From Monosiga brevicollis MX1 (taxonomy: Eukaryota > Opisthokonta > Choanoflagellata > Craspedida > Salpingoecidae): a stretch of DNA of 64,000 bases. This document shows, one piece after another, positions 45,501 through 64,000 of the stretch. The translations under genes were made by a program, and so were the position numbers. The stretch is from NCBI RefSeq assembly GCF_000002865.3, contig NW_001865046.1, positions 1,216,988 through 1,280,987 on the forward strand, in the 5' to 3' direction. The notes below the pieces were generated by a model. The model searched no databases. It was not told where the DNA came from and saw only the letters and a list, made by a program, of their open reading frames with translations. Each line of letters starts with the position of its first letter. The first letter of the stretch is position 1.

Positions 45501-48500
45501 GATGGCGGGGGCTCTGATGGTGGAGATGGAGGCGGCGGGAACGGAGGTGGCGGGGGCAGCAGCGGTGGTCCGTATGCTGGATCATGCTACACTGGTCGAT
45601 TTCAATACCAATACATTTGCAGGGGTTTACAAACTCGCGGCGTTGCAATTGAGATGACTGGCGGAGGTCGGCCTTGCTCATCCTCAGGCCGAGCAGCAGC
45701 TTACATTTCATCGCACCGAAGCTCTGGCTCTGGGGTCGTGTATGCGTCTGTCTCTGTTGCCTCGCCAGCAAGCTGTGGTGATCCCTGTAGTTTGGGTGAC
45801 GTGCTGGGTAACTGTATGGGAAATGACTGCGCAGGGTCGGCAGCTGCTGCGGCGCTGACTTTGGCCTGCGCCAATGCCAAAGAAATGGCAAAACGCTTGT
45901 CACGCGCATTGATCGACTGCACAATTGGTGGTTGCCCTCGTGCTCTTGCGAATGTGCCCTTTTGTGATACTAACGCTCTCGGCATCATTCAATGTGTTGG
46001 CAACATCGCCACTGGTTGCACTGGTCCTTACGGCGCTGGTATGTATACTGCCTACTTTCATTTGTGTTGCTTAAATGTGTCCGAGAGAAGGAATAATGAG
46101 TTGTTTTTTTCGAATGCTGACCCGAAACGTGGTTCAGGCCCGAAACGTGGTGCAGGCCTTTGTATTGACAGGTGGTTGTGCAATGGCTGTTGTGCAATAC
46201 TCATACCACCTTTGCTCTTTGCTGACCTGCCGGTGTTTTCATCTAGCTGCATCTGCTGCCTTTGGTGCTGCCATGTGCGCAGCAAGTGTGGGATCTGCCT
46301 TAAGCTCCTCGGCTCGAAGACGGCGAGAACAGAACCCCACCTTTTTTGAGCTCGTCCGCCGGGACGCCGACGAGGATCTGGCGGCTGAGGGGCTGTATCA
46401 AGCGTCTGGGTGGATTCAAAACTATGTACTTTTGATGCAAGCCATTTTCGGGGTGAATGACAACAATTTGGCCTTTGCATACAACTCCTCCTTTCACGCC
46501 GAATACTTTATGCCTGCACTGACGGAGGGCAGCGAATTGGATTCATTGATCTCCACTGCGGAGTTGGCAAGTGTTGTGAACGCCTCTCCCGCCAACGTCG
46601 ATTCAGGAGAGGTCGAGCTGTGGCTTTTAAAGTACAATCGCACAGCCGCGGCCTGGTTGACAGGTGCCGTCAACGCGAGCAATCACGACACGTTTAACCT
46701 CACCGACATTGAGAATCGGTTTTCTCAGCTTCAAGCCGACACGAACAACGCTTTGCTGCTGGGTTACACTGATATTCTGTCCGCGTACATGGGGCTGCAG
46801 CGAGTTTTCGAGCAATCGCGGGCTAACGCGGCCCGGAAAGCCGGCGTTTGCGCGTCGGTCACCATCACGATCGAACAAGACCTGGTTATGGCCCGCCAAG
46901 CATTTGAAGCGCGACTGGAGATTGTCAACGAAGACTCTTACGATCTATCAGACATCAGCGTTGAGTTTATCATTACCCATGTTGCCACACGAATTCAATC
47001 GCGTCATGTGTTTGAGATCGGTAGTGCGACCATGGAGGGTGGCCTAACCGGTGTTTCTGGCGGCGGTGTCCTGCCAAGTGGTTCCACAGGCACAGCAACC
47101 TGGCTCATGCTTCCAAATGCTTTGGCTGCGCCTACATCAGCTCCCGAGGAGTATGAGGTCGGTGGCATTCTGGTTTACACAATCAATGGCATCACGACAG
47201 AGGCGGACCTCTTTCCAGATACGATCACAGTCCAGCCGGATCCTCGGATGACTGTTCACTATTTCCTCCAGGAGTATATCGTCTCTGATGATCCCTTCAC
47301 AACCGAGCTAGAAGCGGCCTTGCCGGCAACATTGGCCGTTGTGATTCACAATCACGGAAATGGTACAGCTCAGAACATGCGCATTTCTTCCGAGCAACCA
47401 CAGATTGTCAACAACGAAAAAGGGCTGCTGGTCAATTTTGAGCTGCGAAGCACATCTCTGAACGGTGTGGCTGTGTTGCCACCACGACTGGAGAATGTCG
47501 ACATGGGAGATTTGACTAGCCGTGCAAGCGCTGTTGTCACGTGGGAACTATTGACCAGCCTACAAGGTCGCTTCACGGACTTTAGCGTCGAAATGCAGTA
47601 TAGCAACGTTCTAGGCAACGATGAGCTTTCTTTGATTGAGTCTGTCAATTCCTATCAGATGCTGCACATGTCAGCCGTGCCAAACGGCTTTGAGTTTGTT
47701 GTTCGTTCGAAAAACGTGCCTGGTCTGTACTGGCTGTTGCACAGCCAAGATCCGCGGGTCATCATCCCACTGGCAAATCCTGCCAATCAAACGGCCGTAT
47801 ACGATGAGGACAGTCAGATCCTCTTTTTCTCCTCGGAGACATTGGTCCCGGGCTTCCGCCTCACTCAGGTTGTATTACCTGCGCGGCAAAAAGCCATTCA
47901 GGTTTTGCGACATGAGGGTAACGGTACCGTTATCATTGACCCCAGTCGCTTCTGGGTGATTCACGTCACCGAGCATCTCCAGCCAGCCCGTCGACGTACC
48001 ACCAATGATGGAATAACCACGAGCACCCTGTATGTGGTTGACGAGGATGAAGGCGGCAGCAGCCTTCCGTATGACTACGAGGCTCATCTGGTTCCTGACC
48101 CAGTAGTATTGGATAATACCACCAACCCTACTGCCACAACAACCACACCCAGCGGTGCAGCGACAGGAACGCACAGTCCTACAGCATCGACTACGAATAA
48201 CGGCGGTGGAATTGCATCAACCTCGAATAATGGCGGTGGGGATGCATCGACCTCTAATAATGGCGGTGGGATTGCATCAACCACGAATAACGGCGGTGGA
48301 ATTGCATCGACCTCGAATAATGGCGGTGGGGATGCATCGACCTCTAATAATGGCGGTGGGATTGCATCAACCACGAATAACGGCGGTGGAATTGCATCGA
48401 CCACGAATAACGGCGGTGGGGATGCCAATGTATCTCCTTCTACAACTGCTCACGGCGAGGGGGCCGGGGGGGGCACTGGTACACCGTCTTTGACAACAAA

Positions 48501-49395
48501 CAGTGGTGCGGATGGATTCACCTCCACCCCACCAGCCGATGGAGGCAGTAGTGGCGCATCATCAACCCTACCCAACGGGGGTCAAGGCTCTGCCAGTGAC
48601 GATGATGACCTCAACTTGGGTCGTTGGTCAACAACCGATGATCCGACGCAGCAAAACAGAGACCCAACGGCACCCCAAAAAGCTTCACAGTTTCCTCTGT
48701 GGCTAATTGCACTGGTGGCTATTCTGTTGCTGATTATCATTGCTGTGCTATTGGTTCGATACTGGCGTCGTGCAGGTGCCCAAGCGCGCGCGGATCGTCG
48801 AGTCCGCTCCGTGGTCCCTTCAAAAGACAGTGAAGATCTCCGCACCCACTTTACAAATCCTGGATACGAAGGGGTGGTCGACCCTTCATCGGGTCTTTAC
48901 AGCGAGATTGAGCTGCAAACCGACCGAGCTGTTGAAAATCCGGTCTACGATGGGGCTGTGCAGCTGGATAGCGTGTATGCTGACGCTCGCTCGAAACCAC
49001 TCCTTGGAACACATGCAGGAGCTGCCGTTGTTTCTCAAGCAGAATACTTTGATCCGCATGCCAAGCAGGATGCGCAGTATTTTGACCCTGCTCAAGCAAG
49101 GCAAGGAACTAGCGAGAATCACTACTTTGATCCGCACTCTCAGGTCCCCGCAACGGCCGCGGCGGGCGCTCAAGATTACTTTGATCCAAAAGACATTGGT
49201 CTCCGCCCTGTACTTGGTGCCAGCGCAGTTGCTGAAGATGAATTGTATGCTGATGGGATGGAAGTTGGAGCCATGACCACATCAGGTCTAGTCCCAGATG
49301 ATGGCTACCTCGATCTCGAGGATCACCCTGAGCCGACTGCATCAGATCAGACGTACTTTGATATCAGCCCAGATGCCAATGCACTATTGGATTAA
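36507..49395 (+). CDS. giant PA14/EGF/cadherin/IPT adhesion receptor with tyrosine-rich tail
   Basis: Exons 36507..36594, 36745..43276, 43424..43550, 43671..46038 and 46247..49395 join to about 4087 residues. Order: signal peptide (LLSLQLLLSLLLLFSSFVAF); eight PA14-type domains in four pairs (about 68-191, 254-391, 525-651, 714-861, 991-1121, 1181-1321, 1453-1578, 1629-1768) with EGF-like Cys clusters between; one cadherin repeat (about 1786-1884); EGF-like repeats; one IPT/TIG domain (about 1958-2039); long beta-rich regions; Asp-rich and GGSTPA linkers; a Cys-rich block near 2860-3040; another beta-rich region; an NNGGG repeat linker; one membrane helix (LWLIALVAILLLIIIAVLLV, about 3853-3876); and a 210-residue tail. 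The tail holds eleven tyrosines in acidic contexts, four of them YFDP, plus NPGY and NPVY. This fits a cell-surface adhesin or glycan receptor that signals through tyrosine phosphorylation. Known: PA14 domains often bind glycans, and NPxY binds PTB domains. Inferred: its ligand and kinase. The first intron is 150 bases and open in frame, so its removal is likely but not certain. Confidence 0.9.
45142..45390. repeat. 18-base coding minisatellite (GGSTPA), about 14 units
   Basis: Inside the receptor gene a six-residue unit, Gly-Gly-Ser-Thr-Pro-Ala, repeats about 14 times with a few Asp, Thr or His variants. It forms a flexible, probably O-glycosylated stalk between two Asp-rich stretches. The high identity between units at the DNA level suggests length variation between individuals. 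Confidence 0.9.
48184..48426. repeat. 30-base coding minisatellite (STxNNGGGxA), eight units
   Basis: Eight copies of a ten-residue unit, Ser-Thr-Ser/Thr-Asn-Asn-Gly-Gly-Gly-Ile/Asp-Ala, lie between the last ectodomain block and the membrane helix of the receptor. It looks like a second flexible stalk. Confidence 0.9.
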
Positions 49396-49806: not shown

Positions 49807-52800
49807 ATGTCAAGAGCACAAGAGAGCGTCTGCTTGCATTGCAATATAGCATTTCATAGTCGTGTTGCAAGAGATCAACATGTCTCTTTGGTGCGTTGCG
49901 TGCATCATGAATCTGTCTGATTGCCTCTCCGAAAAAAAAAAGCCACCTCATCACCAGCATTCGTGAGCATGTAGGTGCACCAGAAGCGAACACGGGTCAG
50001 GTTGAACGGAGAAGTAATCGTTCGACACCGGGAGGATGACGGCTTTTTTCATTGCCGAGTGGCAGGATGCCACTACCGCCACAAACGTGCGGTCACCCTC
50101 AAATCTCATCTCCGACACCAACATGAGGAACGGGCGCCACCGGTGCCGGCTGTGATCAACGACCATCCGCCTGCTCGCCAAAAACCCGCTCGAACGCGCA
50201 CGAGAAAGCGCATAGTCAGGCTTGACCGGCGCCTAGGCATTGCTGGGGCCCGGCAGTTCATGGAGGGCATTGGTTGCTTGGTGAGCCCTGCTGTTGCATC
50301 ACTGGTCTGTACGCATTGTGGCCATGTCCTCAGCGGCAGGGTGCTCCATCACATCCTCAACAAGCACCATGTAAGGTGTAGCCAAGAAGACATCGACGCA
50401 GCCACGGCACTCCTGCGCTCCCTGCAGCCTGAGGAGCCGCCAATTGACCTCGGGCCAGAATCAGGCCCACGTGTGCCTGTAGAAGGCATCCCTATTCTTG
50501 ACGGTGTGGGCTGCCCTCTATGCCAGGCTTGCTTTACCTCGAGCGGCAGTCTCAAAAACCATGTTATGGCAGAACATCCACATGAACCAGGGGCCAAGCA
50601 GTTGCCTCGACGTGTCAAGCTGCAAAAGCCGTTGCGTGGTGCTGGTGTCCGCTGTGTGGAAGTGATTGTCGAGGAAAGCAATGATGCTTCAGCAGCCGAC
50701 GTCAGCGAAAACGAGGAGGAGCTGGAGGAGCAGCAGCGGTTTAAGCAGTTCATCTCAAGCACCCAGGCCATGGCGTCAGAGGCTGAGGAGAAGCGCTGCC
50801 CGCACGGCGTTTACCAGATGCATCCGTTCTACGACAGCGTGGGCATGACGCTGATCCTGAACGAGCTGACCCCAGAGCAAATTCTCAAGCTGGGCCACGA
50901 CACCCCACCCGCACCACTTGCGGCGGGCATGCAAGAGATCTTCTGGGAGGCCCACGAACAATTGTCCCAGCACGGTCTGGCGGCTGCTTCCGTGGCGTCC
51001 TTGTTCGGAGATGAAGAGTTTCAAGTTCAGCCGCAATCTTTACCCCAAGTATCTCCTGGCACGATGAGCAGATACCTAAACATTGGAGCGCGGCTGGTGC
51101 ATTTTATACTGCTACTGAACGCACTGCCAGCCCCCGAGCCATCCAGCTTTTTGAGCCAGGTGCTCACCAGTCGTGGGGAGGCCATAACTACAGCTGCTTT
51201 GGCCGTGCAAGACGCGCTGGATGCGGGACTGAGCGGGGAGGATCTTGTCGAGCCCTTGGCGGCACTGTGGCTGGCACTGGTGAATGCAGAGCTACATCTG
51301 TTTGACAACGACAAGGTGCACTTTGTCAACGTGTTTTTGTTGTGCACGGCCGTGTCCAAGGGAAGCGGTGTCTTGCAGGACATCCGGCGCTGGACCACAA
51401 CGCTGGCCGGCCTGATTTACATTTTCAAGCTGTTTTTGCTCCGGTTTGGCAAGGCACAGCGATGGGCCACTGCGGGTAAACTCAGGCCTTTTCTACAGTC
51501 TGGACGGCTGGTGCATTTTCTGAGCCAGCGCATGACGGCGGCTCGCTCTGCCAGCACGGCCGATGGGCAGGTTGGAGTGGATATTGATGTGCAAACGGAC
51601 GGTGACATGACGGACGAGGCGCTGCACACCATTGTTTGTCAAGGTACTGAACTCAACGTGAAAGAGATTGGGACCGCCCTGGCACAGATGCGCAACGATA
51701 TGAAGGAGGTCTTGGACACCCACCTCTTGCTGGGATCGGATCTGCGAGAGCGACATGCTCTCGAGTATGTCCGGCTACGGTCGAAGGAGGATCGGACCAA
51801 CAGGGTCAAGAATTGGTGGGTGGGCCATGGCAGCCCAGCTGAGCGGGCCCTATTGGATCACATTGGCCAGACTCCGAGCTTGCGGCAAGAATTTATCTGC
51901 ACGGAGCTGGGGCCAGAAGGAGCTGATGAAGAGCTGACCTTTCGAGAAGACCGCGTGCGGGAATGGCTTCTGTTTGTGGGCAAGTTTAACCAGCTGGCGG
52001 TCACTTACACCCACATGGCTGGAGGTACGCTTGCGATCGAGCAAAGACTCTGTTTGAGAAGCTTGGCATGTTTATTGTACCACTCTTATCTGTTTGCATT
52101 GGCTTTGGCGTTTTGTTAGGTCTGCCACCTCAAGCAACCGTATATCAAGGGCTATCCTACAAAAATGGCGTGGGTCGGCAACGGGCCGTGTTTTTCGCTG
52201 AAAGGCAGCTTTCCATATTGACCCGTCTGGGTAAAACCCACGGGCTCTCTCTAGATGAGCAGCACGCCTATCGGTACATGGACGAGGAAGTCAGCAAGCT
52301 GATTTTCATGTATTTGCTCTTGTGCAAGCCTCTGGAGCAGATGCTAACCAGCTGGCTGGAGAAGCGGGGCGCTCTTCAAACCCCTCGCGATGGCGGGCGT
52401 GGAACCTACGACGATGATCAGGAAGAGGAGGATCTATTGGAGGACGAGCAGGATGAAGACCACATGAGCCACGACGATGGCATGACCTTGCGACGCGAGG
52501 TACAAGACGCTCAACGCCACTATAACAACAGCCACTTGCTCTTCAACATTGCGCCTCTGCAGACCATGCTCAGCCCAGCCTCCATCTACGCTGCCTTTCG
52601 TCGACAAATGACCGCCTACCTGCATCAGCCAACGCTGGGAGTGGCCAAGTGGCGACACGCCGTGACCTTTTGGATGACAACATTTGTGACAAACCGGCTC
52701 TTTGCCGACCCCGCGAGCACTTTGGGTAGCCTGATGCGCACCCAGGCACAGCCCTTGGGCAACATGGCCAAAGACTTCTTTGCTACCGCAACAAGCAACC

Positions 52801-55795
52801 AATTGCAAGCCAAAATGTCATCACGTCTGATGCATCAGCTGGCCTCACAAAGCTGGCATGCCTTCTTGGGTCTTGACCGCAAGCGCAGCGTGGCCGAGCT
52901 CACAGCCGCCAAGGAAGCTTTGGATGTTCGCCACCCCATAAGCTGGAGCGGGTCATCAAAGCTTGAAGCAGACGGGCGCGTCATCATGGATCCACGAGCC
53001 GAGCATGATGTAGCCTACATGACCCAACTGGCCCAGCAGGCACGCATCTCCTGGGGCCACGGCTTTAAAAGCCAAGAACAGTTGGATTTGGCAGCGGCCA
53101 TCGACCAGCATCGGGACGAGGATGGCTGGCTGATTGTTGTCACGCCGTTAGACATGGACAAGACGCTTTGTACCATGCCCAAACTGGGTTGTCACCCGCA
53201 TGCCGGCACGGTGCTGTGGATTGTGCCTTTTGCGACCTCGGCCGATAATTTGCTGCAGCGTCTGCAAGCGGCTGGCCACAGTGCGCAAAGGTGGCTGGGC
53301 CCCTCGACGCCGGTAGCAGCTGGCCTCGATGTGCTTATTATCACGACTGACAAGTTTGTTAACACGGGCTCTGACGCCCTGCACGCACGTGCTTGCTTCC
53401 AAGGCATTAGGACCGTGGTTCTGGACGAAGCGCACACGCTGATCTCTGATGCCAGCAGCCGGAATATGATGGCTCAAGTCGGGGCCTGCGTGGCCTCTGG
53501 CGGATGGACCAACATCAAGCGCGTGGCTTTGACTGATACTTTATGCATGTGCGACCAAGAGCGGCTTTTTCGACAACTGGGTCAGCAAGCAGGGGGCAAA
53601 CTGTACCGCCTGGAAACAATGCGTCACAATGTGGAGCTGCGTGTGCATCATGGCGACCAGCGGGCCTTCTTGTCGCACGTGCAAGGTCTTGTGGACAGGC
53701 AGCGGATGACGCGTCAGGAGAATGAGGAGCCTGTGCACATGATGGTCTTTTGTGACACGGTGGCCGAGGTAAAGCTGCTGTGTGACCAGCTGCACGCACG
53801 CGGCTATGCAGCTTTGCCCTACTATGCAGACTTGGAAGAGATGGCGCAGAAGGACCATCTGGCACGGTGGCAACAGAGTGAATGCGACGTCATCGTGGCC
53901 GCCAGCTGTCTGAGCATGGGTGTGGATCTGTTTACCGTCCGCCACGTGCTGTGGTATGGCAGTGGTCATGACGTCTATACCCTGGTAAAGGTGAGTTGCT
54001 GCTCAAACGTTCATGGGACTGTCTCAATTTTTTTAAAAAAAAAATGAATTGTTCATTGAATTAATGGTGTGCATGTAATCGGCCATAGGCATTTGGTCGG
54101 GCTGGCCGTGATGGAAAGGACGGAGCTGCCGAGTTGTGGCTGCCAGTCAGGTGCGCCCCAGCACCGGGCATGGAGGCCTTTGTCGAGGGCAGTGTGTGTC
54201 GAAGGTGGACGCTTGGCAAAATGTTGGATTCCCGCGCTGCTACATGCCTTGCCACCGGCCAGGCTTCCTGTGACGTGTGCACGCAAATGGCACAGGAAGT
54301 GCAGCCAAGCATCGCCGTACACAGTGAACATGTCACTCGATCGGGCGAGACTGCAGTGATGGCTGATGTATCGCCACGGCCAAGTGCTGAACGATTTGAT
54401 GCAGCCACCGAAGAGCTCAGGTCTGTGTCAGATTCACCCACGGTGTCAGATTCCGAGCTTCAGGCACAGCGACAGGAAGAAGCTCGGGCGCAGCCAGTGC
54501 AGAGCAGTGACACTCGTCAAGCTCCAGCATCAGGCGTGACGTTGGCCTCTGAAGCAGGCTCGGCCATGGCTGATTTTTTGCCAAGGCCACGTGCTGGACG
54601 ACTTGACGAAGAGGCCACGGAACCCATCATGTCTCTGCCAGCAACACCGACGGCATCTGACTTTGAGCTTGAGTTTGATTCCCTGACAGAACTTCAAGAA
54701 GATGATGTACCATGTTCTTCCGTGCCAGGTTTGCGGGCCAAAACCACGTCAGGGGGTGAAAATGTGCCTCGGCACGCAACAGAAGCTGCAGCTTCAAACG
54801 AGGCTAAGCAGACTTCCACGGCTTTATTACCTCGTCTTGGAGCACCGCTGCCATCTCTGCCAGTACCTTCGGCCTTGCCGATGCGCTTGCCCGTGCCATC
54901 TGCTCCCGATGCCTTGTTACCACGGCCCCGAGCAAACGCGCCCTCGGCAGCGCTGCGGCTTACGCGTGTCCGGGCTCTGGCGGAACGCACAACTGCCCTA
55001 GCCTCACCCATGGAGAGCTCCCCTGACGGTGACGGCCCTGTAGATATAGACCCTGCCGCAGAGGCCGAGACCACGCAGCACCCTTGCACTTTGTTGGGCA
55101 ACCAAGGGTCTGGAGTATCTGGCGCAAACCCTACGCGGCCTTCTGCCAAGCGTGTGGCATCTGCTACATTGCCCCCGGCTGCTTTATCATCGCAAGGATG
55201 TGAAGCGGCGTCGATGCCACGTCTGAGATCAGACAAGCGAGCCAAGACGACGCGTTCGCGCCTAATCCACAAGGCGGCGGCTGACAAGTTTCTGGATGCG
55301 CTGAGGTTGATGCATGCCTATTGCATGCCATGTACCATTCGCCAGTCTCAAGCCGTCTGGAAACCTCAACATATCTGTCCCGAATCAGACGACACATGCA
55401 CCCGGTGCCATCTCGCGGGGCACAGTGCCGATGAGTGCAACATCGATTTTGAATCTGCCACACGAGAATGTTGCGCCAGATGTGGCATGCCATCTAGGAT
55501 CGGCGGCCACCCGTTGAAGCATTTGCCGAGCTGTGCAATCGATAAAGGCCTTGGACGAGTCTTGAGCTCCATTGTCCTCCTTGCCGACTGTCATCCGCGG
55601 CTGCGCCAACTGGCCAAGCGGATGGGATACGATCTTCAGCCCGGGACGCTGCAGACGCGACATTTTCGCGAAAGATTTATCGCATGGCTGTACTCGGAAG
55701 ACAAGCATCTGCCGGCAGGCCATTGGCACCTTGTGGAGTTTGTGATTGAAAGCGTTGAGATTTTGATCGGGGCAGCCGCGAGGGCTGTGATATGA
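49807..55795 (+). CDS. zinc-finger RecQ-like helicase, TLH type, copy 1 (open frame)
   Basis: Four exons, 49807..49890, 49975..52024, 52120..53990 and 54089..55795, join to 1903 residues. The first C2H2 finger (VCLHCNIAFHS and onwards) is completed only after splicing: C-x2-C-x12-H-x4-H with the last His in exon 2. Further fingers lie at about 51-77 (FHCRVAGC), 138-162 (LVCTHCGHVL) and 207-232 (GCPLCQACF). The central module has WLLFVGKFNQLAVTYTHMAGG (first 20 residues at about 690) and SQSWHAFLGLDRKR (about 955), as in the large fungal RecQ/TLH proteins I remember. The helicase covers about 1030-1370: an unusual Walker A (TPLDMDKTL), DEAH in VLDEAHTLI, SCLSMGVDL, and motif VI AFGRAGRDGKDG. 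A CCHC knuckle (CTRCHLAGHSADEC, about 1771) is near the C-terminus. Likely DNA-binding and nuclear. The degenerate Walker A and LTDTL in place of LTGTL suggest weakened ATPase. It could be a mobile-element gene or a subtelomeric gene family. Confidence 0.82.
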
Positions 55796-56751
55796 TAACA
55801 GAAGCGACATGCTATTTTTTTAAAAGGTTTGGATAGTATTATAATGGGAGTATGAGGACCGAGAACACCATGATGCGTGGAATCGACCAAGACTTTTATG
55901 CAAGTGTGCTTCAGTAGCCTCTGGGCTTTTTCTGTCATGCGGAATGAGCTGCGTCTTGCCAGGAGGGAGCGCAAATTGACATCGTTTGCCTTGCCAAGTA
56001 CTGTTTGAACGCCTGACACCTGGCATCTTGATGCTCTTGCGCCACACACAACAGAGTGCACGGATCCTTGCAGGCGTTGGCACGATTGACAGGAATACTG
56101 AATGATGCGCCAGCAGGCCTGAATCAGTCGTGAGAAAGTGGACCTTGTAATTGCATCCAATATAAAGGATGATGAACGGTTTTGGTCTTTAGAGTACAGT
56201 CATAAAGCTAAAATCATGACACATAATGTAGAACAAAGCAGAGAAAATGAAGATTTGACTTTCTGCAGCAAACCTTGTGGAAATGGAAGAATTGAGCTGT
56301 ATGGAAACGTGACAGCGTTCAGAAAAGACTCGAGATATTGTTGGCTTTTTGTGTGTTTATGTGTGTGTATGTGTGTGTGTGTGTGGGGAGTGTGTGTGTG
56401 TGTGGTCACATTTTCTTTTTTTTTTTTTTTTTTGATCAGTCGCCAAGTCGAGGCATTGCTGTTGCTGGCGGCGTGGTTCAGCGTGGGGCAACCATCAGTA
56501 TCGGTGCGTGCAACAGTACCCGAGTCATCGAGGATCCTGGTCTCGCACGCTTTCCGTTTGGCCAGGTTGGTGAACACCCACAATGACGGCGGTCGGCATA
56601 CAAGAACCAAGATCGTGACATTCACCTCCGTTTTCTTCCCATCTTCGGCCTCACCTGCTCGTTCGTAGGTGGAGCATTTAGTCAACCAGCCTGGACATTC
56701 GCAGACCTTGTGTTCCAATCGACACAAACACGCAACAGCATCTGGCACGGC
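55796..56751. other. spacer between helicase copies 1 and 2
   Basis: Nearly 1 kb without a recognised gene. It holds a GT-rich tract (about 56349-56402) followed by a T-run (about 56417-56433). A minus-strand open frame covers part of copy 1's 3' end and the spacer but has no domain and is taken as chance. No inverted or direct terminal repeat shared with the left flank of copy 1 was noticed. Confidence 0.45.
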
Positions 56752-59620
56752 ATGGATGCTTCATCAAGCACTCAGGGTGGAGCGCAGTCGACCCACACAT
56801 GTCGATCATGCGCTCAAACTTTTACGACGCAGAAGCAGCAAGCGCATCATCAACCTCGCGTGCTGCTCGGCGTTCGATTTCATCTGTCACGCTCTCACAT
56901 CGCTTTGCAACCAACTTGTAGCGTCATCAACAAGAGTCGCGGATCACCATCGGTCAAAGAAACTTTCTTTTAAAGCGAGCGGCACTCGATGGCAAATTTT
57001 GCTGTCCGATCTACGGCTGCAAGAAGCGCTACCCCAAGGCTGAGGGCGTGAGACGGCACATCAGAGCAAAGCACATGGCCATGGCAGAGAAGACTTTTGC
57101 CAAGCTGGGCGGTATGCTCGTTCGCAGCCCCGCTTCGCAGATCAACAACGCTCCGAAGTCGGTCATTGGAGCGCCTAAACGCCGATATCCTCATCATCAA
57201 GTTTCCTTGGGCAAAAATGCTGATGCATCGCGCGCCAAAATGTATCTGGAATCGCTTGGTCTGGCTCTGGATGAGTACGAGTGGATACTGATTTGCGGCA
57301 AGTGCGCGTACGCATTGAGCGAACACCCAGCCCAGCACCTGAAGCGCCACTGCCTGAACGTAGAAGATGCAGACATATCGCTTGCCATGGACCTCATCAA
57401 GGAAGCAACGCCACGAAAGGTACCCAAACTCGACATGAACGGCTGCCGACCTGCGTACCCATGCATCCCAGTACATCGGGGCTATAGGTGTCCTTGCTGT
57501 ACCTTTTGCTTTTCAACACGAGAAAGCCTGGTGCGACATGAACAATGCCATGCTGGTGATCCAGCCACCATCAGACCCTGGGCCTTGGGGTACTGCTTGA
57601 CCGATTGGCACTCAACCAATTCAGAGAGCTGGGATTTAGCGAGATCAACCCGACGCTAATCACGTGCATGCATGGTCTCTTGGACAAGACGCACGAAAAC
57701 ACGTTACACGCATGCAGCAGAGCTACGATCGCTACATGATTGTGGCTACGCGCTACGTGCAATACCTCTTACGAGCACGGCGCCGTGACAGCCAGCTTCC
57801 TGGTCGAATCAGTGACGAGCTGGCAAAAGCTTTGGACGACGTGGAAGTGGCCCAAGGTCAAAATAACATTGCGCTATCCGAGGCGTTGACCAACGTGTGG
57901 TGTGCCATCCTTGATGAAAGCACGGACATGAACAACTTGGACTTGGAGTACTGTCCCACCATCTATATCCTTTGCACGACGGTGAAAGCCAACAACACCT
58001 TTAAGCAGCCAAGCAGCTGGACGCCAACGCTGGCAGCCCTGTTGTGGATCTGCCGCTTGTTCCTGCTCTTCCGCCGCCAGCTCGATCGAAATAGTCCGGG
58101 CGCGCTGACGGATGATACTGCTGTCAAGACACGGTTGACGGAGGGCCGCATTTGCTACTATCTTGGTAGTAAATTGACCTATGTTCGCAAATGCTCCTCG
58201 GAGGAGGGCAAATACGGTGTTGACGTGGTGTTTGAAACGCAGCCAGCCCCCGGACAGGAGTTTCAGGCTTTGACAGTGAATGGCATTCGTATGGACGTGT
58301 CTAAGTTTGGGACAGGTCTGCGAGCTATGCGAGCAGGAATGAACCAAATTCTCACCAAGGACCTCCTGTTCAACTCGGGGCTGGAGAAGCGAGTTTATGC
58401 TGTCTTGCCCTCACTGCTTGACTCAGATCAGTCCGGGCCCCCACAGTCCTGGTTAGGCCAGGATTTGAAGGACGCTGGCGGTCGTGACTTTTACACAATG
58501 CTGTTGGAGCACATTTTGGAAACTCCAGAGCTGGTCAAGGAGTTTACCATGCCTAATGCACCCGGCAAGTTCAGCGTAGAATCAGTGTGGCGGTGGATCT
58601 GCTCCCTGCAAGAGTTTAATCGCCTGGCATTGACCTATACACACCTGTCAACTGGTACGTCTGATCGTTTGAGTGGTGTTGTTTGTTGCAAAAAAAATTT
58701 ACATGCGCAGAGTCTCACCATACACCTGTGCATAGCCCCACCCGTGCATGCGACGGTATACACGAGCCTTTTTTATCGCGACTCCTCCGCCAGCCCCAGA
58801 AATGTCTTCTTCTCCGGCAACCGCTTGGCGTTTGTCGCGCAACAAGGCGAAGCTACATTGATCAACAACCCCGAGTCGCATGCTACACACTACATGGACG
58901 AGCGGACCAGTGCAATTATGATGGCTTACCTGCTATTGTGCAAGCCATTGGAGGAGCTGTTTGCTGATTACTTGCAAGAGCGAGGCGAATTGATCACGTC
59001 CTCGGCAATAGATTCCAATTCTTTGACGGAAGAGGAGCAAGATGAGCTCGAGGCCGGCGCGATGGAGGTCGAAGATTCGGTCGCGCCAAACACTTCCAGC
59101 CCTGCTGACGACCAGCACGCTGATCTGCGAGCTTTCAAGCGTGTCGAACTGGAGGGCACGTATGAGCTGCTATTCAATATTGTGCCGATGCAGCTCGAAA
59201 AACAGCTTCGACCAGGCCTAGTCTACCGAACCATCCAGGCCGTGACCAAGCGATTTCTTGGAACCAGCATCACTGTCAGCGCATGGCGGCACATGAGCGT
59301 GGCCTGGCTGCGCACACTGGTGATGCATGATGCGCCCGAGCTTTTAGGGGCGCTGGATGTAACTTACTCTCAAAGCCAGCGTGGAGGTCGGACGGCACGC
59401 GACGTCCATGGCCGCACGCAGCGCGACCACAAGGTTGCGTCCAGCGAATCAGAGTATGGCCACCAATTTCTGTCCGACGAGTGGCGCAAGCTCATCCAGC
59501 TGATGTAAGAGATTCAAGAAGCTGGAACCATACATGAACAGACCTGCGTATGACAAGTGGTTCAAAGGCACGTTGTCATTCAGGCGTCATGGTTTAGTAA
59601 TGCCGTGCACATGTGCAGGT
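56752..59620 (+). pseudogene. TLH-type gene, copy 2a: zinc fingers and central module, broken
   Basis: Exon 1 (56752..56859) starts with MDASSSTQGG and carries the first part of a C2H2 finger (TCRSCAQTF). After splicing to 56922 its last His is supplied, exactly as in copy 1. A second finger (FCCPIYGCKKRY) and two more Cys/His clusters (ILICGKCAYAL, YRCPCCTFCF) follow to about 57560. The frame is then disturbed twice by about 57720, after which a long frame runs to 59508 with the central module (WICSLQEFNRLALTYTHLSTG), the conserved intron near 58654-58738, YRDSSASPRNVFFSGN and an ITVSAWRHMSVAWLRTL segment. Sequence after 59508 still resembles copy 2b but is decayed. No helicase part is attached before copy 2b begins. 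It is diverged from copy 1 and belongs to another branch of the family. Confidence 0.7.
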
Positions 59621-60760
59621 GACCGGCAACATCAATTGTCTCTCCTTGTTGTGACACATGCGGTCGGACACGAGTTGCACTTGCTCTATCCTCGGCATTA
59701 GCAACTCGACAGCTATTCTAAGGGTGCACCTGTTCTGATCACTGTGAATACTTGCCGACCGCAGCTGGTTCAATTGACCTCAAGACACCATCAAACCTTT
59801 CAATCTATCGCGACTCCTCCGCCAGCGCCAGACATGTCTTCTTCTCCGGCAATTTGATTCATGCGGAGCAGGCCAAACGCTGGCGGTGCGCTGCTACTGT
59901 TCTCTGTAGCGTCGGCTGGCACTTGGATCCTCAATTGTTCAATGACCAAGACCTACAAACGCTTGGTGACCGCGTGGATGCCCTAACGTCGGCCTCTGTA
60001 GCTGCACCTTGATACTTTTTTACAAATTGAAATTTGTGGCGCTTTAGAGTGGCTTGTCGATTGCTATGCAAAAAGAAAGTAAAGTCAATGGGCAGGGCGG
60101 GCCTTGCCAACCGTCTGAAGCAGAACCGTCCAACAAGCACGGAAAAGAGCGAGAAACCGCTTCGTCTTCTTTTACCATGACAACGGATAATAGCAATAGT
60201 GTCTCGGTAGTGGTGGATGCGGCGCTGCACGAGCTGGTGACGAGGGCATTGAGCGGCGGTCTTATCATGCAAGCGATCAGTTCCGGTCACGCTCGGGTAT
60301 TCTGACAATTGGATGCAGTAAATGTGTGTCTGGTTGCCAAGGTTCTTGGTGTCTTTGCAAGTCAGTTTGTGAGACACCTGTGCTAGGTGCGTTGGTTGGC
60401 TACAAGTGTGGGTAAAACTGCGTCGTCAGCAGAAGCGAAGGCGCGACCCAGACTGAAGAGCGACGTCCACGCCAAGTCTATCAAACCATCCAGGCCGTGA
60501 CCAAGCAATTTCTTGGAACTAGCATCACTGTCAGTGCATGGCGGCACATGAGCGTGGCTTGGCTGCGTACACTGGTGTTGCATCATACGCCCGAGCCTTC
60601 ATTGGGGGCGTTGAATGTGGCACACTCTCAAAGCCAGCATGCAGGCAGAACGGCACGCAACGTCTATGGCCGCACGCAGCTCGATCACAAGTTTGTGTCC
60701 AGCGAAGCACAGTATGGCCACCAGTTTGTGTCTGAAGAATGGCACAAGCTCATGAAGCTG
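58777..60760. repeat. imperfect direct duplication inside helicase copy 2
   Basis: The stretch at 58777-58822 recurs at about 59805-59850, and 59229-59500 recurs at about 60481-60760, with few differences in the parts I compared by eye. The spacing differs by roughly 225 bases, so one copy has lost or gained sequence between the matching blocks. The duplication creates the joint between copies 2a and 2b. Confidence 0.75.
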
Positions 60761-62884
60761 GTAGATGTAGAGGATCAGATCCAAGCCGAGGCCGTGGATG
60801 AGCGTATCTGCGTGCAACAAGTGGTTCATAAACAGGTGGTCATCCAGTCGTCTCGGGTCAGAAACGTCAGCACACAGGTGCAAGCGACCGCAGGCACGCA
60901 AACGGATCTCGAGGTTGAAGCCTGTCTTGATGCTGAAGACGACATTGACGAAATTATTGCCGAGTTGGATTTAGGCGAAGCTGAGGCAGCCGAATCGTCC
61001 ATGCCAGTTGCCGTGCAGCGAGCCGTGGAAGAGGCTGCGTCGACGGCCTTGCAGCAAGAGCCAAGCCAGCACAGTGGCCAAACGCAGCAAGAAGAGTATG
61101 AGGATTAGATTTGGCTTGCTCAATGTGTGCGGCAAGCGTGGAAGACAACGTTTCGCGACTGGGATCAGTACCGATTGGCACAGGCTGTGACTCGGCACTA
61201 AGCTCAGGATGGCTGGCTGTTGGCCGTGGCCCCGACTGGCATGGGCAAGACGCTGTGCACACTTGCTCACCTCCAGCCACGCAAGGTCGTGGTGTGGGTA
61301 GTGCCGCTTCGTGAGCTTGCCAGAGACTGGTGCCGCCGCTTCGAGCAGGCTGACATTGTATCGCAGTGGGCTAAGAATGATGGCCGTGACATGCAAGTCA
61401 ACGTTCAAGTGATTGTCATGACGGTTGACCTTTTGGTTGGCCATGGGATGAGGTGGGTGCAAACACTCGTGCAGCAGAAGCGTCTGGCCATGCTAGTGAT
61501 GGACGAGGTTCACACAATGCTCGTGGACACTAGCTATCGAGAGAGTCTAGTTCGCTGCCCAGGCCGGCTGGACCATCTTCGCCAAGACCCATCTGTCAAG
61601 TGTGTGGGCCTCACTGGCACGCTTTGCCCCAAAGATGAGCGGGCTCTGCTCCAACAGCTGGATTACACGGAGGACGCTTCGTACCAGACCTTTCGTATGC
61701 CAACCATGCGAACCGATCTTCGGCTAGGGGTGCAACAAGGAACAACAAAGGCATTTGAGAAGTTTGTGAAACATCACTACGACATGTTGGAGCGAGAGAG
61801 CCGCGTGGATCGCATGCTGATTTTTTGTGACACGAAGAAGCAGGTTGAGGCATTGTCGACTCAGTTGGCACGCCCGTTGGGTCACGAGCAGTCGCTGGCC
61901 GTGGATGCTGACATGTCAGCCGAAGACACGCGAGCCGCTCTTGAGCAGTGGAGGAGCGGCACGCAGAGTCTGGTCTTGGTGGCCACAAGCTGTTTGGGCG
62001 CGGGCTTGGACATGCCCAACGTCCGGAAGGTGATCTGGTTTGGCAGCGGCTACAACGGCTACACCTTGTCGCAGGCCTTTGGCCGGGCTGGCCGCGACCG
62101 ACGGGGTGGCGAGGCCACGCTATGGATACCACCAGGCACAGCGGTTTCGGAAGACCTGCAGCCATTTGCAAGCATGAAGCGCTGCCTGACCTTTGAGCTT
62201 GGTTGGCTGCTGGATGGTGAGGGCCACATTTGTGCGGCCGCAGGAGCGCCGGCTTGCACCGTCTGCTCCATGATGCAACCGACCTTCACAGCGCGCCATC
62301 CAAGCCGTGAAGCACATGGGGCGCCAGTATCACACGAGGGCCAGACGCGGGCCAAACGAGCGCAGTTGATGGTACCATCGGCGCCCATTCAGTCAGACGA
62401 CTTTAACACGGCTCTGCTATGGATGTGCACCTACTGCTGGGCCTGCAGCTGCAGCAGAGACCGCTTGGTTGCTCACCACCAGCCTTCTAGCTGCCCGGCC
62501 ATGAAAGGGCGCTGTTTTCGATGCCACTGCCGCGGTCATGGTAGTAGCAATTGCCAAGTGACCTTGGGGGCGGGTGTTTGCTACCGGTGTTGGAGGCCGC
62601 AGAAGATTGGAGGTGAGCAAGTGGTGGAGTGCACGGGGCGGGCCTGTGGCCAGCGCAACCGCGAGACCATCCGGGCCTTGGTCGCGTCTGTGTCACGCAG
62701 TCAAACTTTGCACGGCATCATGCAGCGCATGGAGTGCCCGGCTGAGCTGCTGGCAGTTAGAGGGCGGGACTTTGACCCGTCGGAGATGCAGGCGCTTGTG
62801 GGCTGGCTGTACGGGCGCGTTGGCCACCCGCGCGTGCTGAAGCTTGTGATTGAAGCGAAACGGCAGTTTGCAATGATGAAGTGA
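59752..62884 (+). pseudogene. TLH-type gene, copy 2b: shortened centre plus RecQ helicase and zinc knuckle, broken
   Basis: This piece repeats part of copy 2a (YRDSSASARHVFFSGN at about 59808, ITVSAWRHMSVAWLRTL at about 60526) with unrelated sequence between, then continues into an acidic segment ending at 61108. A stop-containing joint follows, with recognisable homology to copy 1 (DQYRLAQAVTRH). The helicase frame 61220..62884 is open for 554 residues: Walker A APTGMGKTL, DEVH box, LTGTLCPKD, SCLGAGLDMPNVR and motif VI QAFGRAGRDRRGG. It ends with a CCHC knuckle (CFRCHCRGHGSSNC) and a conserved C-terminal block (GWLYGRVGHPRVLKLVIEAK). The helicase motifs are more canonical than in copy 1. 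Whether any transcript is made from the helicase frame alone is unknown; the Met at 61220 sits directly before the Walker A motif, so such a protein would lack the upstream part of the first RecA lobe. Confidence 0.72.
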
Positions 62885-63210
62885 GTGTTTGTTTGTTTTT
62901 GAAGCGGGGGTATAATTGAGACGTTTGACAGCTTGTGGGCTGTTTGCGTTAGAGGAGATACGCTGATCGAGCATGGATGTGAACAGATATTGAAGTGAAA
63001 TCAGTTGCGTTGAAGGGGAAAAGAAATTACGATGGGAGGGAAACATCGAAGGAAGAGACACGGATGAGCAATGATGAAAATAGTAGAAATGAGTAAAAAT
63101 GTGGAATGAAGAAAAAGAATTGGTTGGTGGTACATGTAGAGAAAAGAGGTGGAATATGAGGATGGTGTGAAGAAGGTGTTTTAGAAAAGGGGAAAAGAAA
63201 ATAAGATAGC
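62885..63210. other. purine-rich spacer
   Basis: No gene. From about 63015 the plus strand is dominated by G and A (GAAGAAGG, GGGGAAAAGAAAA type), in contrast to the flanking helicase copies. It ends where homology to copy 1 begins abruptly. Confidence 0.5.
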
Positions 63211-64000
63211 CTGAACGAACAGCATACCTTTCGATACATGGACCAGGAAATCAGCACGCTGATATTCATGCATCTGCTGCTGTGCAAGCCTCTGGAGCAC
63301 ATGCTGAGCAGCTGGCTGCAAAAGCGGGGCAGCCTGAAAACCCCCGACGACGAGAATGGCATTCACAATGCCGAGCAGGACGACGAAGATTTGCTCGACG
63401 ACGAGCTGGATGAAGACCACATGAGCCACGACGAGACGATGACTTTGCGACGCGAGGTCCGGGACGCTCGAAACCACTACAACAACAGCCACCTGCTCTT
63501 CAACATTGCGCCCCTGCAGACGATGGTCAGCCCAGCCACCATATATGCGACATTTCGTCGACAAATGACCACGTACCTGCATCGGCCAAAGCTGGGGGTG
63601 GCCACGTGGCGACACGCCGCAACCTTCTGGATGACGACGTTTGTGATTAACCGACTGTCGGCCGAGACGACCGACGCCCTGGGCAGCCTGATCCACACTC
63701 AAGCTCAACACTCTGGGGACACAGCCCAGCGGGCCTATGCACGCACAGCTAGTGACCATGTGCAAACCAAAATGTCGTCGCGACTGATGCATCAAGTGGC
63801 CTCGCAAAAATGGCATGCTTTGTTTGGACTAGATCGCAAGCGCAGCATAGCCGAGTTGACCGCGAACCAAGAAGCATTGGAAGCTCGCTATCCCATCAGC
63901 TGGAACCCGGTGACTGACCTCTCGCCCGAGGCAAACGGGCGTATCATCATGAACACGAGGGCAGAGCATGACGTACCCTACATGACCCAGCTGGCCAAGC
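63211..64000 (+). CDS. TLH-type gene, copy 3, 5'-truncated, continues beyond the window
   Basis: From 63211 one frame is open to the window end and encodes about 263 residues closely similar to copy 1 from its position of about 52252: FRYMDQEISTLIFMHLLLCK, YNNSHLLFNIAPLQTM, FRRQMTTYLHRPKLGVATWR, QKWHALFGLDRKRSIAEL and AEHDVPYMTQLAK. It is much closer to copy 1 than to copies 2a/2b. The zinc-finger region and first half of the central module are missing; homology starts abruptly after purine-rich DNA, so this is a truncated copy or the far side of a rearrangement. It retains QAQHSGDTAQRAYAR, the best preserved version of a motif shared with the fungal proteins. Whether the helicase part follows to the right cannot be seen. 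Confidence 0.75.
   Translation, partial: MNEQHTFRYMDQEISTLIFMHLLLCKPLEHMLSSWLQKRGSLKTPDDENGIHNAEQDDEDLLDDELDEDHMSHDETMTLRREVRDARNHYNNSHLLFNIAPLQTMVSPATIYATFRRQMTTYLHRPKLGVATWRHAATFWMTTFVINRLSAETTDALGSLIHTQAQHSGDTAQRAYARTASDHVQTKMSSRLMHQVASQKWHALFGLDRKRSIAELTANQEALEARYPISWNPVTDLSPEANGRIIMNTRAEHDVPYMTQLAK

Follow-up and report, generated by a model that had tools for sequence, protein, structure and literature searches.

The window analysed here, the final 64 kb of the 1,280,987-base contig C49 of Monosiga brevicollis MX1 (1216988-1280987, window base 64000 being the last base of the contig), is very probably a chromosome end carrying a subtelomeric family of telomere-linked helicase (TLH) genes, one branch of which, subfamily A1, appears helicase-dead yet kept by selection. 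The close relatives of the window genes, with up to 95% identity, belong to the same M. brevicollis strain. The family lies at contig ends with outward polarity, has a recurring domain architecture, resembles fungal helicases that carry an OrsD domain, and falls into three subfamilies (A1, A2 and B). The original prediction regarded such a family as undescribed, which does not hold: the M. brevicollis TLH family is already known, judging by the title of Robertson 2009 (Chromosome Res 17:873; cited in PMC5405514), which names M. brevicollis telomere-linked helicase genes like those of some fungi. The preserved dead A1 branch and the recombinase-like core of the proteins may be new.

The assembly examined comprises 39.47 Mb in 57 contigs, hence 114 contig ends, which serve here as a proxy for chromosome ends. 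A genome search with the helicase of piece 3 of the window gave 61 matches and one with the OrsD/central exon of copy 1 gave 49, both counts being lower bounds. Of these 110 or more matches, at least 104 fall in the outermost 40 kb of a contig, a zone that makes up 11.2% of the genome, and all 104 terminal matches have their 3' side outward. They mark 38 of the 114 contig ends, and outward polarity at all 38 has a chance of 2^-38 when each end is counted once and independence is assumed. OrsD is found in 19 places in the genome, 15 of them above the family cut-off. The prediction had named a mobile element, a subtelomeric family or a transferred system as candidates; the subtelomeric family is borne out, and the copies are terminal and outward rather than randomly spread.

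A dispersed transposon, enriched at contig ends due to assembly breaks at repeats, is a highly improbable alternative. It predicts about half of the ends to face inward and many internal copies, whereas no terminal match faces inward and three family fragments are internal (C16:73013-73333, C17:203522-203668 and C56:1841781-1842014). The two inverted-repeat pairs in the 45-64 kb part of the window both lie within copy 2, and none flanks a copy. A freely mobile element is thus unlikely as the principal explanation. The internal fragments weigh on the side of a transposon and against a purely subtelomeric family, as does the finding that 10 of the 38 ends break off inside a family match or within 100 bases of one, which indicates assembly breaks within family genes. 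The fragments are possibly relics of former ends, or insertions. The other three matches away from the ends are helicases of other kinds: those on C39 and C54 were rejected as family members, being ordinary DEAD/Helicase_C proteins, and we take the one on C55 to be an ordinary helicase too. A further point against the chromosome-end reading is that mapping the copies relative to telomeric repeats, suggested with the prediction, succeeded for contig ends only, as no TTAGGG array is assembled there. The sole (TTAGGG)4 of the assembly lies inside C29 (C29:493423-493446); as a single array about 64 kb from the contig end it was rejected as an interstitial mark of an old fusion. Because of the missing end arrays and the ten ends broken at family matches, we infer closeness to the true telomere.

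Four related pieces in one shared orientation occupy 49.8-64.0 kb of the window, as predicted, and with 61 and 49 matches to such sequences in the genome their likeness is not due to chance. The features are as follows.

49807..55795, + strand: copy 1, subfamily A1, complete gene with four exons, 1,903 amino acids
49807-49890, 49975-52024, 52120-53990 and 54089-55795, + strand: exons of copy 1, splice sites fitted to predicted relatives
50302..50577, + strand: OrsD domain (PF12013) of copy 1, Pfam E 1.5e-7, 32.3 bits versus a cut-off of 26.6, located 3' of two C2H2 fingers
52122..52874, + strand: C-terminal part of the central module of copy 1, with a putative tyrosine-recombinase-like pattern (alignments of fungal-type and Monosiga proteins, A1 copies, profile comparison)
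53145..54118, + strand: helicase domain of copy 1 (Pfam Helicase_C E 2.6e-9; motif tables)
55397..55438, + strand: CCHC knuckle of copy 1, CTRCHLAGHSADEC, starting at residue 1772 (from the sequence)
56922..59625, + strand: copy 2, subfamily B, with finger, OrsD and central module, ending before the helicase
57282-57548, + strand: OrsD domain of copy 2, Pfam E 8.7e-6
59804-59852: second-copy fragment beside copy 2
60456..63131, + strand: piece 3, subfamily B, 5'-truncated, beginning inside the central module, with helicase, zinc motifs and 3' flank
about 63207 to 64000, + strand: piece 4, subfamily A2, 5'-truncated central-module fragment that runs off the contig end

Copy 1 begins with an ATG at 49807, the predicted start. 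Its splice sites were picked so that the joined frame agrees with the predicted relatives P0001 and P0003, and removal of the three introns leaves a single open frame of 1,903 amino acids without an internal stop. The protein has two N-terminal C2H2 fingers (read by eye), OrsD, a central module closed by WHAFLGL (residues 957-963, window 52854-52874), helicase motifs, a long low-complexity stretch and the CCHC knuckle, after which a second Cys-rich motif, CARCGMPSRIGGH, follows. The predicted order of fingers, central module, helicase and knuckle is complete in copy 1 only, since pieces 2-4 are truncated. The helicase of copy 1 has PLDMDKT (53145-53165) in place of the Walker A sequence PTGMGKT, and ALTDTLC as motif III; it still has DEAH and AFGRAGRDG.

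Copies 2 and 3 form one branch (B), and copies 1 and 4 the other (A1 and A2). Both B pieces have a relative at the left end of C53, with 83% identity for 58307-59625 of copy 2 and 94.7% over 2,688 columns for piece 3. The helicase frame of piece 3 (61202-62884; Pfam DEAD E 5.1e-15, Helicase_C E 1.8e-18) keeps an intact PTGMGKT; piece 3 as a whole has two in-frame stops. Piece 4 (63217-64000) is 76% identical in DNA to 52257-53037 of copy 1, and its motif, WHALFGL, is of the A2 type. An intron just before LP(P/V)RA appears common to A and B when P0033 is compared by eye with the window frames.

The likeness to fungal TLH/RecQ proteins in the original prediction is upheld by the combination of OrsD, helicase and C-terminal zinc motifs, and by a WHxFLG motif that also occurs in the fungal-type relatives; zinc motifs like those of copy 1 are present in several of them. 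The copy 1 helicase retrieved 24 proteins, 15 of which are from Monosiga or of the same kind (at least 61% identity) and nine are others. The closest of the nine, P0024, has OrsD and a helicase (28% identity, E 2.3e-18), and the first RecQ match follows at E 2.1e-8. P0028 and P0032 (from the fungus Sorochytrium milnesiophthora) also have OrsD and a helicase, and OrsD precedes the helicase in P0024, P0028 and P0032 as it does in copy 1. P0030 (from the fungus Hypoxylon texense) has a helicase with a sub-threshold OrsD in Pfam, P0025 and P0026 have a helicase without OrsD, P0027 is a RecQ with RQC and HRDC domains, and P0029 and P0031 are DnaQ-type RecQ proteins. The B helicase, used as a query in turn, retrieved 26 proteins, of which 12 are from Monosiga or similar to those; the remaining 14 comprise six DUF559-helicases, two DnaQ-RecQ proteins, five RecQ-UvrD proteins and one OrsD-helicase (P0050). 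The six DUF559-helicases nearest to B outside the family (P0041-P0045 and P0047; 1,130-1,202 amino acids) join DUF559 (PF04480) to a RecQ-like helicase.

In a tree of 30 helicase domains, Monosiga A and B share a branch (100/100) that P0030 joins next (94/90), in the neighbourhood of the other OrsD-helicases, and 12 RecQ-type rows that lack OrsD are united in a single group (100/99). The placement beside OrsD-helicases is tentative because of long branches. The best outside matches of the B helicase, the DUF559-helicases, lack OrsD (best E 2.4e-11), which counts against it. P0032 joins the side of the RecQ-type rows on a weak branch (75/70). Acquisition of the family from fungi by horizontal transfer is improbable. 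Two named fungi among the outside relatives would agree with it, but in this small tree Monosiga has a long branch (1.37 changes per column) that does not nest within a group of fungi, and the A and B helicases are at most 36% identical to each other, which indicates an old split. As a TLH family outside fungi, these genes would point either to an old origin in opisthokonts or to movement between opisthokont lineages.

The three subfamilies were compared at loci from the helicase-query search (A1, n=10; A2, n=8; B, n=7); the subfamily label of some ends follows identity class only, and three helicase matches carry no label. All ten A1 copies have D before the K of Walker A (PLDMDKT, PSGMDKT or PLDMDKK), while PTGMGKT is found in seven of eight A2 copies (PTGMGKA in the other) and in all seven B copies. 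Motif III reads TDT in all nine A1 copies with data and TGT in 7/8 A2, and the motif V glycine is D in nine of ten A1 copies, the window copy retaining G. As far as sequences can tell, A1 has evidently lost helicase residues and continues under purifying selection. The median pairwise ratio of nonsynonymous to synonymous substitution rates (dN/dS) in A1 exon 3 is 0.226 (45 pairs, range 0.143-0.358), lower than in A2 exon 3 (0.345 from 28 pairs) or in the B frame (0.318 from 21 pairs). Pairs with fewer than 60 shared codons or with dS outside 0.03-3 were excluded; the whole-region medians lost no pair (45, 28 and 21), and 15 of 28 were kept for the central part of A2. Private changes were counted in clear-majority columns and as single-base changes only, and the neutral model used the same base changes. 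A1 has 58 amino-acid-changing and 57 silent private changes (amino-acid-changing fraction expected under neutrality 0.691), and none of 2,000 simulations was as low. Leaving out one copy at a time gave none of 1,000 simulations as low in each of ten runs; the window copy contributes 14 of the 57 silent changes. The corresponding counts are 51 to 38 for A2 (p 0.008) and 58 to 42 for B (p 0.02). The dN/dS values and private changes together indicate that constraint on A1, despite its broken motifs, is no weaker than on A2 and B.

It is unlikely that the A1 copies are functionless pseudogenes kept alike by gene conversion, as nine of ten are stop-free in exon 3, their dN/dS both in the central module (0.246) and in the helicase (0.221) is below that of the catalytically intact A2 and B, and their private amino-acid changes are below the neutral level. 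Rows with at least one stop number one of ten in A1 (exon 3), seven of eight in A2 and three of seven in B. The altered catalytic residues would be expected of pseudogenes, and conversion is suggested by apparent A1/A2 mosaics at C24L (C24:20782-22904) and C10R (C10:201406-205502), where it may have occurred between ends. Some damage in A1 also speaks for decay and against a maintained branch: in exon 3, L020 has a gap of 123 codons, L028 has a gap of 22 codons and a frame shift, and a third copy bears the stop; among the best 12 exon 2 matches, three contain a stop. A branch maintained by selection remains the favoured account of A1.

The central module is, on the whole, probably a domain derived from a tyrosine recombinase, with predicted catalysis and modest profile support. 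In an alignment of nine rows (seven fungal-type proteins and two from Monosiga, A2 and B), the columns G53, G90, P92, R94, R111, K128, P160, R222 and Y262 are invariant. R94, K128, R222 and Y262, together with H253 (8/9), have the R-K-R-H-Y order of tyrosine recombinases. The module was compared by hhalign with a profile of 25 recombinases, called so by a PF00589 match (30 loci, of which 28 gave a frame and 24 remained after removal of near-copies, plus Cre). The spacing from H to Y is nine in both profiles. The score was 21.3 (P 0.041, probability 1.3%), and it was reached by 0 of 200, 2 of 800 and 5 of 900 column shuffles (7/1,900 in all). In the alignment from the run with 200 shuffles, R, K, R, H and Y all pair with their counterparts, as read by eye; in that from the run with 900, R and K are in register, and no more than one is in register in any of the 900 shuffles.

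The A1 copies bear on this assignment as well. Relative to the 18 columns conserved in at least eight of the nine rows, A1 differs at three, R94Q, H253P and Y262F, and the other 13 conserved columns outside the proposed catalytic ones are unchanged. All three changes fall within the five proposed catalytic columns, for which the chance is 10/816; the five had been picked out by the recombinase pattern ahead of the count, at a time when the A1 letters were already in view. In the window copy the residues are Q (52131-52133), P (52752-52754) and F (52779-52781). Across A1, R is replaced by Q in 10/10 copies, H by P in 9/9 and Y by F in eight of nine (C in one), and K is retained in 9/10 and the second R in 10/10. 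Among copies with data, H and Y are kept in all six A2 and all seven B, and R in all four A2 and all three B.

The module may instead be a helical DNA- or protein-binding domain in which R-K-R-H-Y is coincidental, a lesser but serious possibility. The rarity of the hhalign score among shuffles, the pairing of the five residues, the shared H-to-Y spacing and the alteration in A1 of exactly R, H and Y speak for a recombinase. Several results point the other way. Pfam, PHROGs and NCBIfam gave no match naming a recombinase for the central module up to E 10, single-sequence HMMER comparison with recombinases gave no signal in either direction, the hhalign probability is low, and two low-confidence AlphaFold models of the module (mean pLDDT 55 and 59) gave no clear structural match. 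The first H of HxxR occurs in P0025 only and is missing in eight of nine rows, and the E of RxxE, present in the fungal-type rows, is absent from those of Monosiga. A literature search, outside which most subscription papers lie, found no text pairing "telomere-linked helicase" with "tyrosine recombinase"; PMC3418195, on Trypanosoma cruzi, mentions a RecQ helicase and cites a title with a tyrosine recombinase, the two being unconnected. If the tyrosine-recombinase assignment is correct, it offers a catalytic hypothesis, with tyrosine-DNA covalent intermediates at chromosome ends, and the recombinase middle could be the reason why TLH genes remain at ends.

At this probable chromosome end the innermost copy is the full A1 gene, and outward of it lie truncated copies of B and A2; the direction of transcription is toward the end throughout. 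A1 is the inner copy on the four ends that have a full A1 gene and another sizeable copy (C23L, C48R, C49R and C56R), and at C17L an A2 fragment lies inward of A1. Copies may spread and homogenise through recombination between chromosome ends, since they are often truncated, some look mosaic, and none is reversed at an end. The A2 and B proteins could be DNA-end factors, in which OrsD and the C2H2 fingers would bind DNA, the central module would cut or hold it, and the helicase would unwind it. A1 might serve as a non-catalytic partner or regulator of the active proteins, or as an end-binding protein. A conserved branch that is dead in both activities would mean that binding, and not catalysis alone, is selected. 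The effect may be to help the copying or repair of ends alongside ordinary telomerase.

Ordinary telomerase is likely present, as C48:754256-756180 probably encodes a telomerase reverse transcriptase (TERT). The first part, C48:754256-754531, matches PF12009 (Telomerase_RBD, E 2.3e-13), and the frames that follow, to 756180, have TERT-type reverse-transcriptase motifs by eye. Pfam confirmed the first piece of this candidate and gave no match for the reverse-transcriptase frame tested. PMC5405514 (2017) reports that TERT was not found in M. brevicollis or S. rosetta. With the TERT motifs and the Telomerase_RBD match in the genome, the idea of TLHs as a stand-in for missing telomerase was rejected; where telomerase is likely present, TLHs would not be a needed replacement.

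The last gene before the cluster (46075-49395) is a frame of 1,106 amino acids that likely encodes a membrane protein: it contains 30-base repeats and a hydrophobic segment, and NPxY-like and YFDP motifs occur in its tail. Its sole Pfam match is a sub-threshold DUF4381.

Y' elements of Saccharomyces are subtelomeric repeats with helicase genes that spread by end-to-end recombination. Their helicases are likewise subtelomeric and recombination-spread, and are not known to carry an OrsD domain or a comparable central module. The fungal TLHs (TLH1, UTASa/UTASb, tlh1/tlh2 and TLHcr of Fusarium) are closer: they are also subtelomeric and multi-copy, with a RecQ-like core and truncated copies, and they share with Monosiga one orientation where reported and, in some, OrsD or DUF3505, which we take to be the older name of OrsD. 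Compared by description with these fungal TLHs, the classical ones of S. pombe, Magnaporthe and Ustilago among them, the Monosiga family differs in its non-fungal host, its introns, the lack of assembled terminal repeats and perhaps the helicase-dead A1 branch.

TLHs have been reported since 1998, according to a reference in PMC5576322, and the same paper describes helicase and DUF3505 repeats in one orientation at 24 of 24 subtelomeres of C. higginsianum. Other papers describe an OrsD domain in UTASb of U. maydis (PMC10532341), TLHs and FoTeRs in F. oxysporum (PMC12857005), shared repeated subtelomeric regions in S. rosetta (PMC4054682), and 19 subtelomeric RecQ genes in A. bisporus, about half of them truncated (PMC7473861). 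The authors of the last source found no further domain next to the core of the helicase, either in these A. bisporus genes or in their counterparts from other fungi; this tells against OrsD as a common feature, so OrsD may not mark all TLHs. The genes of Robertson 2009 are from the same species and, by the title, are the same genes as those described here.

Crypton tyrosine recombinases and their dead DUF3504 descendants resemble the central module, by description, in an R-H-R-Y pattern and in descendants that are dead yet conserved; the text of the Crypton paper (PMC3212892) nowhere mentions a helicase, unlike the Monosiga family. One dead Crypton descendant, WOC, sits at telomeres, according to that paper. 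We consider it evenly balanced whether the TLHs of fungi and choanoflagellates combine in one protein an OrsD finger module, a tyrosine recombinase and a RecQ-like helicase and derive from a recombinase-type mobile element settled at chromosome ends, with A1 as a doubly dead but selected branch that parallels WOC.

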